Shown in pieces: positions 2,527 through 59,670 of a stretch of DNA of 64,000 nucleotides (the stretch's first letter is position 1; every line of letters begins with the position of its first letter). Source of the DNA: Gammaproteobacteria bacterium (GTDB lineage Bacteria; Pseudomonadota; Gammaproteobacteria; Xanthomonadales; Marinicellaceae); the NCBI GenBank assembly GCA_030430025.1, contig JAUIGR010000001.1, forward strand, positions 62,001 to 126,000, read 5' to 3'. The position numbers were made by a program, and so were the translations under genes. The notes beneath the pieces were generated by a model. The model had not been told where the DNA came from. It saw only the letters and a program-made list of their open reading frames with translations, and ran no database searches.

Positions 2527-2544
2527 AATGTGCATCGAAAAAAT

Positions 2545-2737
2545 GATAGCAATGGCACCAAACCCGTGTGATTAAAGAGGAGGAAAATCACACAAACCTA
2601 GGTGAAACACATGACGGTGCCACCGCTATCTAACCTAAAACCAGCGTTTTAATCAACACAGGTGGGAACATGCTGGCTTTTTAACCCACCTTCCATGAAT
2701 ACCAACGTATTTCTCTGCCGTTGTGGGTCAACAATCT
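2545..2737 (+). repeat. Structured direct repeat, copy A (candidate non-coding RNA)
   Basis: This is one of two ~195-bp direct repeats after hrpA. It folds on paper into an outer stem (GATAGC and GGCACC at 2545-2559 with GGTGCC and GCTATC at 2616-2630, split by a 3x3 internal loop). The outer stem encloses a hairpin GTGTGATT/AATCACAC (2566-2573 with 2586-2593) whose loop reads AAAGAGGAGGAA. A third stem, GGTGGG/CCCACC (2661-2666 with 2685-2690), follows the shared TAACCTAAAACC. The block ends with shared ATACCAACGTATTT and GGGTCAA. No convincing reading frame is present. Strand is inferred only from the direction of hrpA and the purine-rich loop. Function is unknown; it could be an RNA or a DNA-level repeat. 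Confidence 0.6.
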
Positions 2738-2963
2738 CACCACTTTATATGGTAAGTCAGTTCCTTTTGCGTCCACCTTCCTCACTGACTATCGTATTTT
2801 TTTCGATTTATAGGTCAACATTTTCAATTTTTTTTAAAATTAGTTTAGTAGTTGGATTAAAGTTGTCAGGGTACTCACTTGTGTACAGCCTTTTTATAAG
2901 GTTGTATCACTCATTTATTTCCATTCCTAAATAAAAGCTGAATCATGATTTCAACTTCAATAT

Positions 2964-3158
2964 GGTAGCGATGACACCTGGTGTGTGCGATTAAAGAGGA
3001 GGAAAAGCACACAAATGTGGATGAATAAAGATGATGGTGTCATCGCCACCTAACCTAAAACCAATTTCTAAATCAAATCCGGTAGCAACATGCTGATTTC
3101 TTAACTCAACCTTCTATCTATACCAACGTATTTTTTTAATGTTAAGGGTCAAGAATTT
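2964..3158 (+). repeat. Structured direct repeat, copy B (candidate non-coding RNA)
   Basis: Second copy of the repeat at 2545-2737, starting 419 bp downstream. The outer stem is an uninterrupted 11 bp (GCGATGACACC at 2968-2978 with GGTGTCATCGC at 3036-3046). The inner hairpin is GTGTGC/GCACAC (2983-2988 with 3007-3012) around the same ATTAAAGAGGAGGAAAA loop. Relative to copy A, the outer stem changes GGCACC/GGTGCC to GACACC/GGTGTC and the inner stem changes at both arms, so pairing is kept while sequence differs. The third stem of copy A is weak here (GGTAG against CAACC with a mismatch), so that part of the model is less secure. Confidence 0.6.
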
Positions 3159-3274: not shown

Positions 3275-3532
3275 TAATTAGTCAGTTCTGAAAAAGTCCT
3301 TCCTGGCCTTTTCCAGCATCGATCAAAAAACACTTAAGCGCAAAAGTGTGATTTTGCTGATGTTTTTTGACCTTACTTGAGCCTGATGGCTCAAGGTGGC
3401 ACGTCCTTGTGCCACACCGTCGACCGGAAATAAGCATTGAAACGCTTGTTTTCTGATCGAAAAAATATGGAGATTGTAATAAATTTATCTTATCCAACAA
3501 TAACTTATGTATTTTTCAGGTTCGACTAATTA
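3275..3532. mobile_element. MITE-like multi-hairpin element, copy 1
   Basis: A 258-bp element bounded by imperfect ~21-bp terminal inverted repeats, starting TAATTAGTC and ending GACTAATTA, both running into CTGAAAAA or its complement. It matches the element at 28062-28380. Its left ~150 bp is almost identical to that copy and is a chain of hairpins: CTGAAAAAG..CTTTTCCAG, a TCAAAAAAC..GTTTTTTGA stem with an inner ACACTT/AAGTGT hairpin, TTGAGCC/GGCTCAA, and GTGGCAC/GTGCCAC. The middle arm bounded by TCGACC and GATCGA differs from copy 2. No transposase is present. A clear target-site duplication was not found. The minus-strand reading frame inside is not conserved between copies. Confidence 0.7.
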
Positions 3533-28061: not shown

Positions 28062-28380
28062 TAATTAGTCAGTCCTGAAAAAGTCCATCCTGGCCTTTTC
28101 CAGCATTGGTCAAAAAAACACTTAAGCGCAAAAGTGTGATTTTGCTGATGTTTTTTGACCTTACTTGAGCCTGATGGCTCAAGGTGGCACGTCCTTGTGC
28201 CACACCATCGACCATAAAAAAGTTTCTGGAAAATTTTTTCACGTTAGCCTGAGAGCCGCATGGAAGCGGCGAATAAAAATGCATTGTGACACCTGTTTCC
28301 TGGTCGAAAAAATATGCAAAATTGCAGTAACTCTTGATAGTTAACAATAATGTTATGCATTTTTCAGGTTTGACTAATTA
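28062..28380. mobile_element. MITE-like multi-hairpin element, copy 2
   Basis: A 319-bp copy of the element at 3275-3532, 38 bp after the aldehyde dehydrogenase stop. The terminal inverted repeats (TAATTAGTCA..., reverse at 28360-28380) match at about 19 of 21 positions. Hairpins shared with copy 1: CTGAAAAAG..CTTTTCCAG, GGTCAAAAAA..TTTTTTGACC, TTGAGCC/GGCTCAA, GTGGCAC/GTGCCAC. The arm between TCGACC and GGTCGA is ~60 bp longer than in copy 1 and carries an extra GCCGC/GCGGC hairpin. No transposase is present. Its hairpins may also end transcription from the dehydrogenase gene. Mobility is inferred from the repeats only. Confidence 0.7.
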
Positions 28381-50368: not shown

Positions 50369-50914
50369 GTGAACAGGCAAAAATTAGAACGCATCTTCAT
50401 TGAGCATCAGCCATTGATAGAAAAGGCTGTGGCCTCTCAACAAATTAATATACAAGGTATAACGGCAGATGATGTTTATCAAGAAGTTTCTATTCGACTC
50501 ATTAAATTACTTCAAGATGACCGAAATATTGAAAACCTTTCGTCATATATATACAGAACGACGGCAAATGTCATCATAGATTTAGCCAGGAAGTACAAAA
50601 AACATCTAATGGATGTGACTATTCCTGATCAAAGTGATGAGACAGATTACCGACAAGAATTAGTTAGTGAGCAGATGGTTCCTGAAGAAAAAGTTACTGA
50701 GGGAGAGGTTCAACAGAAAGTTCTTGAAGCGATAGAATCATTACCCGAAAGTCGTCGTGTAGCAGTCAAAATGCGATTACAAGGTTACTCTGTGAAGGAA
50801 ATGTGTGAGGTTACTGGTTGGGCATTTTATAAAGCTGAGAACTTATCAAAGCGTGGTATGGCTGCTTTAAAAGATAAACTTAAGCAAGTGAATATTGATT
50901 ATGAATTTGACTGA
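50369..50914 (+). CDS. ECF-type RNA polymerase sigma factor
   Basis: 181 residues, GTG start at 50369. Region 2 (about 12-80) includes ADDVYQEVSIRLIKLLQD and SYIYRTTANVIIDLARKYKKH; region 4 (about 118-172) includes LESLP-like AIESLPESRRVAVKMRLQGYSVKEM and a helix-turn-helix ending KAENLSKRGMAALKDKL. An acidic linker joins them. The next gene overlaps the stop by 14 bp and encodes a small membrane protein, the usual place of an anti-sigma factor. Target promoters are unknown. Confidence 0.87.
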   Translation: MNRQKLERIFIEHQPLIEKAVASQQINIQGITADDVYQEVSIRLIKLLQDDRNIENLSSYIYRTTANVIIDLARKYKKHLMDVTIPDQSDETDYRQELVSEQMVPEEKVTEGEVQQKVLEAIESLPESRRVAVKMRLQGYSVKEMCEVTGWAFYKAENLSKRGMAALKDKLKQVNIDYEFD

Positions 50915-58237: not shown

Positions 58238-59567
58238 AGTAGAGTCGGAAAAATCACAACAGGTCGCTGACTTTTTAAAATCACTGTTCCAAAAAGCCAA
58301 CCCTCAAAACAATGAGATGCAACTCACTGCACAAGATTTGTTAATGCAAGGTTTTGAGGACATTGAAAGTCAAGAATTTACCAGTAAAGAGGTAAAATTT
58401 GAGTTGCTCAATTTAATTCATGACAGTTTAAACTCTATCGGAAAATATGAAGAATCGCTTTCAAAAATTAGTTTGCACTATCAAGAATGTATCAAGGTTC
58501 TCAGTAAGGAGCATGATTCATGCCAAATGTTTCTACTTACTAAGGCGAGGGTTCAATCTGATTTAACCTTGAGGGAAGAGGCACTCAAAACATTAAATAC
58601 TGCTCTAGATATCACTAAAAGCAAAATTGATAGTAATCCAAATTTGTTATTTGATTTTTACACAACTAAATACACTGTATTGATTGAATTAAACCGTATT
58701 GATGAAGCGATTAAAGCACAAGATTTGATGATTGAAACGCTAAAAAAAGATTCCGATCCATACAGATTAGTACATACCTTACACAGCAGTGCAGTCACAT
58801 TAATTAAACAAAAAAGGTTTATTGAGGCGCGCAATTATATTGATCAAATACCGGGTTATTTTAGTTCTTTTGATGAAAACCTTTTAACGGGATGGCAGGC
58901 GTCTTATCTCATGTTAGAACAATATTACTATGTCAATATCCGAGAAGCTAAGAAAAGTTATGAGTTCAGTAAGCAGCGGGTAGCGCTAATGCTTGACAGT
59001 TATGAAGTATTACCGGATCGATTTGGAGACGTGCTACATGAAGCCGGCCAAATGGCAATAAGGAGTGGTAACGAAAAAGAAGGGTTGTATTATTTAACTG
59101 AGTCTCTCAATTTTTTTAAGGATAAAATCAGCGGCAGTGAAGCGCGACAAGTAGAAATAAAGCTTAGAATTATCCTGTATTACCTTATGTCAAATAATCT
59201 TGAAACAGCAGTGGAAGCATTTCAAAAACTCAATATTATTTGGGATGAGTTAAAAGCTAATGACAAAATCAGACAGACCTACAGTATTGTTAAACTGTAT
59301 ATTGATTCACTTCAAAATCGGGTTGATCCGCACTTCACTAAAGAGGCGTGTGCCGAAGAAATCATGACAAAGAGCCTAAGGTTCGCTAATTATTGTCAAA
59401 TAATTAAGATTGTTACTGTAATCATGAAAAGAGACTTTAATGAGGCTGGATCGTTGATTGATGAACTGGAACGCCAGTTAGATATATACCCCAATGATTA
59501 TCTGAACTTTAGAAACAAAGCCAATGAGTTGAGGTCTGAGATCACTTCCTTAAATGTAGATATTTAA
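58230..59567 (+). CDS. C-terminal repeat domain of the Ser/Thr kinase (separate frame)
   Basis: The open frame runs from the A9 run to 59567; the first ATG is at 58317 (416 residues). It starts with VADFLKSLFQKANPQNN, then LTAQDLLMQG, the same join that follows the membrane helix in bacterial kinases with C-terminal TPR domains. The rest is helical and TPR-like (for example EEALKTLNTALDITKS, RIDEAIKAQDLMIETL), probably periplasmic in the joined protein. No ribosome site is obvious before 58317, so independent translation looks weak. I read it as the second half of the gene starting at 56924. Confidence 0.75.
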   Translation, partial: LAEVESEKSQQVADFLKSLFQKANPQNNEMQLTAQDLLMQGFEDIESQEFTSKEVKFELLNLIHDSLNSIGKYEESLSKISLHYQECIKVLSKEHDSCQMFLLTKARVQSDLTLREEALKTLNTALDITKSKIDSNPNLLFDFYTTKYTVLIELNRIDEAIKAQDLMIETLKKDSDPYRLVHTLHSSAVTLIKQKRFIEARNYIDQIPGYFSSFDENLLTGWQASYLMLEQYYYVNIREAKKSYEFSKQRVALMLDSYEVLPDRFGDVLHEAGQMAIRSGNEKEGLYYLTESLNFFKDKISGSEARQVEIKLRIILYYLMSNNLETAVEAFQKLNIIWDELKANDKIRQTYSIVKLYIDSLQNRVDPHFTKEACAEEIMTKSLRFANYCQIIKIVTVIMKRDFNEAGSLIDELERQLDIYPNDYLNFRNKANELRSEITSLNVDI

Positions 59568-59611: not shown

Positions 59612-59670
59612 GGTAATTCGTTAACCTTGAAAAAGTCTATCCTGGTCTTTTTCAAGGTTAACGAATTACC
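59612..59670. repeat. Perfect 24-bp palindrome with 11-nt loop, related to the MITE hairpin
   Basis: Arms at 59612-59635 and 59647-59670 are exact reverse complements (starting GGTAATTCG, ending CGAATTACC). The centre, GAAAAAG TCTATCCTGGT CTTTTTC, closely matches the first hairpin of the elements at 3275 and 28062 (GAAAAAG TCCATCCTGGC CTTTTC). The two base pairs next to this differ together on both arms. It lies 45 bp after the kinase gene and has no T-run, so it is probably more than a plain terminator, though it may act as one. Confidence 0.75.

Follow-up and report, generated by a model that had tools for sequence, protein, structure and literature searches.

The two structured repeats in the window (the whole 64,000-nt stretch of DNA analysed) and a third copy elsewhere in the same genome most likely represent, as judged from their sequences, a lineage-specific family of sibling small RNAs (sRNAs) with C/U-rich loops, a known kind of regulator. 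More unusual is that these sRNAs are linked to a genome-specific class of promoters for exported-looking proteins. The proposed explanation as a whole, to which we assign a probability of roughly 0.7, is that the copies are sibling minus-strand genes for trans-acting sRNAs, which would share a promoter class and would block Shine-Dalgarno (SD) sequences by means of their loop. Copies A and B would be transcribed leftward (minus strand) between two convergent genes, which we take to be hrpA and a rimI-like gene, while the third gene, C, lies elsewhere. The predicted RNAs, ∼145–160 nt in length, would have a long stem at the 3' end, with an inner hairpin that exposes a C/U-rich CCUCC loop. Computation showed the copies, their structure, the strand preference and a promoter motif that is associated with genes for exported-looking proteins; that the sRNAs are transcribed, which sigma factor and targets are involved, and in which direction regulation acts are inferred. 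An odd repeat is thereby turned into a testable gene circuit, composed of sibling sRNAs and a promoter code common to about twenty genes, most of which encode exported-looking proteins.

Copy A (2545-2737) and copy B (2964-3158), whose starts are 419 bp apart, are located between the convergent genes and were found in the window sequence exactly where they had first been described, with 75% identity (blastn, E = 1.5e-29 for one genome). When copy A was used to search its own genome (an assembly of 114 contigs, 97.5% complete), a weak match (C113:887-922, E = 0.54) proved on reading to be part of a third full copy, C (G000:C113:744-923), bringing the full copies located to three. A partial fourth unit, D (2788-2818, minus strand), sits between A and B, 87 bp upstream of the promoter of A; it consists of a promoter-like TTGACC-N16-TACGAT and is probably either a second promoter of sRNA A or what is left of a further copy. 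A covariance model (R1) built from A, B and C recovered these three in their own genome at 168-223 bits, as expected for seeds, and the next match scored 23 bits; the E-values of R1 are rough, since the model rests on three sequences.

The sequence and alignment bear out the compensatory changes reported earlier between A and B, in which GGCACC/GGTGCC becomes GACACC/GGTGTC and GTGTGATT/AATCACAC becomes GTGTGC/GCACAC, as well as the identity of the loop in the two copies. Copy C extends this covariation: in the minus-strand alignment (A4) of the three copies, 6 of the 21 pairs are changed on both sides, a count reached by 1 of 500 shuffles and to be compared with 0-2 in slid controls, which is not a probability. 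These double changes support the view that the structured RNA is under selection. As no relative was found outside this genome, the covariation rests on three paralogues.

The double changes do not separate the strands, since six are likewise counted on the plus strand. Pairing does differ, however, with 44 of 45 cells of the outer stem paired on the minus strand versus 42 of 45 on the plus strand, and, for both helices together, 61 of 63 (96.8%) versus 57 of 63 (90.5%). The minus strand pairs better because A.C mismatches of the plus strand turn into G.U pairs on the minus strand, so that the strand can be read from this asymmetry; a counter-example occurs in copy C, where one plus-strand G.U corresponds to A.C on the minus strand. 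Fold z-scores of the same stretches against shuffles were also lower on the minus strand, by a small difference in A (-3.49 versus -3.23) and in B and C at -2.46 versus -1.32 and -2.66 versus -0.70, respectively. Past the outer stem, the minus strand reads ATTTTTT in A, GATTTTTTT in C and ATATTG in B, such that a U run is present in A and C only. Taken with the promoter geometry described below, the pairing, the folding and the U tail of A and C make the minus strand the better candidate for the transcribed strand.

Copies A, B and C carry the minus-strand motif TTGACC-N16-TACGTTGGT, and unit D has the version TTGACC-N16-TACGATAGT. The arrangement of a -35 element, a 16-bp spacer and a -10 element is identical in all four, the -10 element being TACGTT (TACGAT in D). 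This motif coincides with the 3' module that had been read as single-stranded. The ATACCAACGTATTT described as a conserved single strand, taken together with the GGTCAA that follows it, reads TTGACC-N16-TACGTTGGTAT when reverse-complemented, and this motif also precedes other genes; the second such strand, TAACCTAAAACC, is mostly absent from copy C. The weak third stem, too, is better read as this opposite-strand promoter. A "conserved single strand" may thus be a promoter of the other strand, and the first-pass annotation recognised a genuine structure under selection, but took the less likely strand and mistook a probable promoter for conserved single strands.

Predicted sRNA A (2538-2697, minus strand; ∼160 nt) would begin near 2697, a 5' end placed ∼7 nt past the -10 element, whereas its hairpin and its 3' U run (2543-2538) were read in the sequence. 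Its promoter (2701-2731, minus) comprises TTGACC at 2731-2726, 16 bp and TACGTT at 2709-2704. The terminator-like outer stem of 15 bp, defined by folding and covariation, has its 5' arm at 2616-2630 and its 3' arm at 2545-2559 (both minus), and encloses the inner hairpin (2566-2593, minus; loop 2585-2574). Predicted sRNA B (2964-3118, minus; ∼155 nt) is organised in the same way, with a promoter at 3122-3152 (TTGACC at 3152-3147, 16 bp, TACGTT at 3130-3125), outer-stem arms at 3036-3050 and 2964-2978, and an inner hairpin at 2983-3012 (GUGUGC/GCACAC; loop 3006-2989), all on the minus strand; no U run follows its hairpin. The third sibling, predicted sRNA C, extends from about L053:885 to 740. 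Of the signals of their own, the promoter motif is thus carried by all three copies and the U run by two. Because of the latter, the outer stem is a plausible intrinsic terminator in A and C; the outer stems were not listed by the terminator scan, whose loop limit of 8 excludes stems of this kind. In the AT-rich spacer downstream of B, an imperfect inverted pair, CAGCTTTTAT/ATAAAAAGGCTG, was seen by eye on the minus strand (2886-2940), and may or may not provide a transcription end for B.

Stems of this kind between convergent genes could also be cis elements, namely leaders or terminators, whose promoter would serve only an unannotated short gene. The location of A and B agrees with this, a stem followed by a U run would end minus-strand transcription, and leaders of ∼220 nt do occur at two other sites of the motif. 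However, no conserved ORF runs across the predicted RNAs A, B and C, the next minus-strand ORF listed past A (72 aa) falls within hrpA, and the loop is conserved more than a terminator would need, so that we regard a purely cis-acting role as unlikely.

The promoter motif was analysed further in the window, the genome and the genus. Exact matches in the window were confined to A, B and D, and five matches with up to one mismatch were found versus 0.49 expected. In the whole genome, TTGACC-N11-AAAAATACGWTRGT with up to three mismatches gave 21 matches versus 3 in the reversed control, and TTGAMC-N15-19-CGWTRGT gave 25 versus 6, four of these 25 being A-D, from which the pattern was derived. The gap was exactly 18 in 23 of the 25 matches, and in 19 of 21 without the seed sites A-D, a count that takes in two near-identical copies at contig ends. 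The 17 other genomes of the genus, when pooled, showed no enrichment (107 matches versus 132 in the control); one of these genomes, G004, had 18 versus 6. The -10 element TACGTT agrees with the sigma-70 consensus at three of six positions, which explains why a generic consensus scan reports D and passes over A, B and C. That scan found no excess of promoter-like sites over shuffles (5 versus 5.0, and 1 versus 1.4), and the weight therefore rests on the recurrence of the specific motif. Its distribution is the pattern of a putative promoter class. A limited search of open-access papers turned up neither an sRNA nor a promoter motif of this kind.

The two lists of motif matches contained 30 sites outside the sRNAs, of which 28 were examined, leaving out two with deviating spacing. 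In 21 of the 28, a start codon, picked by hand with regard to the N-terminus, follows at a distance of 21-116 nt, which is no more than 38 nt in 13 cases; these 21 comprise 20 sites and L151, a near copy of L142. Four others are inside coding frames, two lead to an SD sequence and ATG ∼220 nt further on at a contig end, and the context of one (L166) is ambiguous. In 19 of the 21 genes, the product has a hydrophobic, signal-peptide-like N-terminus, as judged by eye, three of these frames being short (37, 48 and 99 aa), while the other two genes encode EAL-domain proteins. Among eight exported-looking proteins scanned against Pfam, two contain P-domains, one has beta-helix and NosD matches, another shows a Chlamydia PMP-type repeat, and the remaining four gave no match. 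With NCBIfam, the two EAL proteins matched EAL models below cut-off only, and the eight others matched nothing. The sites C21:126275 and C113:258, at first suspected to represent a second sRNA family, were rejected as such, since both lead to an SD sequence and a start codon.

Each sRNA would therefore start from a promoter of the type shared with genes for exported-looking proteins and for two EAL-domain proteins, such that the sRNAs would be made when this regulon is on. The motif may be read by a dedicated sigma factor, perhaps an alternative one. The genome has 13 matches to sigma-70 region 2, 12 of them above cut-off; for none of the 13 was a copy of the motif found, at up to one mismatch, in flanks of up to 1500 bp on either side. 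One short protein with a region-2 match (181 aa) is encoded in the window itself (50369-50914, plus strand), and is a possible candidate for the regulator of the motif class.

The distribution of the sRNAs is narrow. The DNA search matched only the genome of origin among 61 genomes, and a pattern for the 3' module likewise matched only this genome of 18 in the genus and of 33 in the family. With R1, searched against 398 genomes of the order (with no more than six candidates scored per genome listed), only the genome itself and one genome of the same genus, at 25 bits, were retrieved. The latter match is regarded as chance, since its alignment covers neither the inner hairpin nor the promoter, and no convincing relative was found among the 397 other genomes. 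A closer examination of the 18 genus genomes with R1 gave further matches of only 18-25 bits. Matches of 15-25 bits, in relatives and in the genome itself, were taken as chance, those inspected being L083, L088, L089, L090 and window position 59457; L089 holds the regulon promoter and no sRNA. By eye, no similar element was seen in the stretch of up to 750 nt after hrpA at 16 congeneric loci (L058-L073), one of which, L065, offers only ∼190 nt, with the loci of other genera (L074-L082) left out. The homologue search suggested by the first-pass annotation thus yielded further covariation, from paralogue C, but nothing convincing from other genomes. The same annotation had recognised no known RNA family, and indeed Rfam 15 gave no match above threshold in the window; relaxed searches around the copies gave 7 and 8 matches (15), all below gathering scores.

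Phage and plasmid collections gave no match. A scan of viral contigs with the 3' motif produced 20 matches, none with the sRNA structure by eye; 19 of these share a match length of 38 nt and flanks that resemble, by eye, one phage gene family, while the remaining one (L035, 27 nt) differs in context, and a tighter pattern found nothing. Two matches on other genome contigs (Flavobacteriaceae and Cytophagales) were also rejected, as R1 matches only the short motif there (4.3 and 7.8 bits).

Scattered copies of this kind, three in number and without a convincing counterpart in the relatives sampled, might alternatively belong to a mobile repeat resembling a MITE or REP element, with a hairpin that is recognised at the DNA level; another dispersed hairpin repeat in fact adjoins both A/B and C. 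Yet just three diverged copies were located, where many would be expected of such repeats, the ends of A and B lack inverted repeats beyond the internal stem, and C has only an AT-rich, low-complexity inverted pair. Conservation is focused on the promoter positions and the loop, and the promoter stands alone before other genes; a mobile repeat is consequently quite improbable.

The adjoining hairpin repeat, centred around AGGCCAGGATGGACTTTTTCAG, occurs at 3288-3309, 28075-28096 and 59627-59648 (all minus strand), three times in the window versus a mean of 0.00 in 100 shuffles. It was also seen by eye beside sRNA C (L053, ∼652-673), and one of its copies in the window is framed by a larger inverted pair (3274-3295/3512-3533).

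In the minus-strand folds, the loop of the inner hairpin is UUCCUCCUCUUU in A and B, and CCCCUCCCCC in C. It is the most conserved internal part of the RNAs (UUUUCCUCCUCUUU in A and B, CUCCCCUCCCCCUU in C), and its core, CCUCC, is common to all three and complementary to SD sequences. A C-rich, anti-SD loop is thus exposed in a stable hairpin, and binding of CsrA or of the anti-SD, the roles first suggested, becomes unlikely because the loop of the minus strand is itself anti-SD-like. In CsrA sponges of the CsrB/RsmZ type, the transcribed strand forms several hairpins with GGA loops; in the present case the GGA loop belongs to the strand taken to be untranscribed, and the minus-strand folds contain no repeated GGA-loop hairpins. 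A plus-strand RNA that binds CsrA or the 16S anti-SD through its GGAGG loop is very improbable, for although the stem folds there too, with as many double changes, and the loop has GGA and GGAGG, that strand has more mismatches and weaker folds, no promoter-like site that the scans place ahead of A, B or C, no U run directly past the 15-bp stem, and a 3' module that is the recurring promoter-like motif of the minus strand.

As minus-strand sRNAs, the siblings would pair through the loop with G-rich SD regions and thereby keep ribosomes from binding their target mRNAs, in the manner of sX13 and other sRNAs with C-rich loops. Structurally, RybB and MicA differ from A, B and C. The likeness to these sigma-E-dependent RNAs is that of sRNAs within a sigma regulon for envelope proteins, and the targets are different (PMC1804206). 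sX13 of Xanthomonas is an sRNA with C-rich apical loops, in which repression requires C-rich motifs and G-rich mRNA motifs near translation starts (PMC3771888). By its description, its three stems bear 4C or 5C loops (PMC3771888), whereas A, B and C each have one CCUCC-type loop and a 15-bp stem. Similarly, the alpha-r14 or cuckoo RNAs (e.g., NfeR1) have an anti-SD motif in their loops, variable stems and conserved sequence ahead of the promoter (PMC10746234), and thus resemble A, B and C; their three hairpins each carry CCUCCUCCC, in contrast to the single such loop per RNA in our folds. GsrN of Caulobacter, which activates katG, likewise combines a C-rich loop with an alternative sigma-T consensus site in its promoter, and has BLASTn relatives confined to one family (PMC5869019). 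Its promoter and sequence are different, and the present case involves several siblings with putative targets. On the strength of the CCUCC loop and of the precedents of sX13, alpha-r14 and GsrN, we favour trans-acting repression of target mRNAs by A, B and C at SD sites.

Predicted duplexes between the loops and SD regions were stronger for 20 regulon starts than for 47 window genes, taken at their first ATGs, with means of -6.3 versus -4.3 kcal/mol (p = 0.026) for the loop of A and B, and -7.4 versus -5.5 kcal/mol (p = 0.020) for that of C. The strongest partner of both loops overall was a background gene, and the best within the regulon was the leader of an EAL gene, AGGGGGAAAAA; the trend is weak and offers only a hint. 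A more tentative extension, possible though not favoured, is a species-specific regulon under an alternative sigma factor reading TTGA(A/C)C-N16-WWCGATGGT, which would embrace surface or exported proteins, the two EAL proteins, which are c-di-GMP-phosphodiesterase-like, and the three sRNAs. The sRNAs would then feed back on the G-rich SD sites of the members themselves, such as that before the EAL gene. The two EAL genes (L157:557-1270, plus strand, and L158:321-998, minus strand) are similar to one another, share a variant of the motif (...TACGATTGT) and have unusually G-rich ribosome-binding sites (AGGGGGAAAAA and AGGGGAAAAA). At the ends of two contigs (L145:470-750, plus, and L053:1-294, minus), the same gene start follows a ∼220-nt leader under the regulon promoter; the final 94 alignment columns are identical, and a repeated gene probably broke the assembly at these ends.
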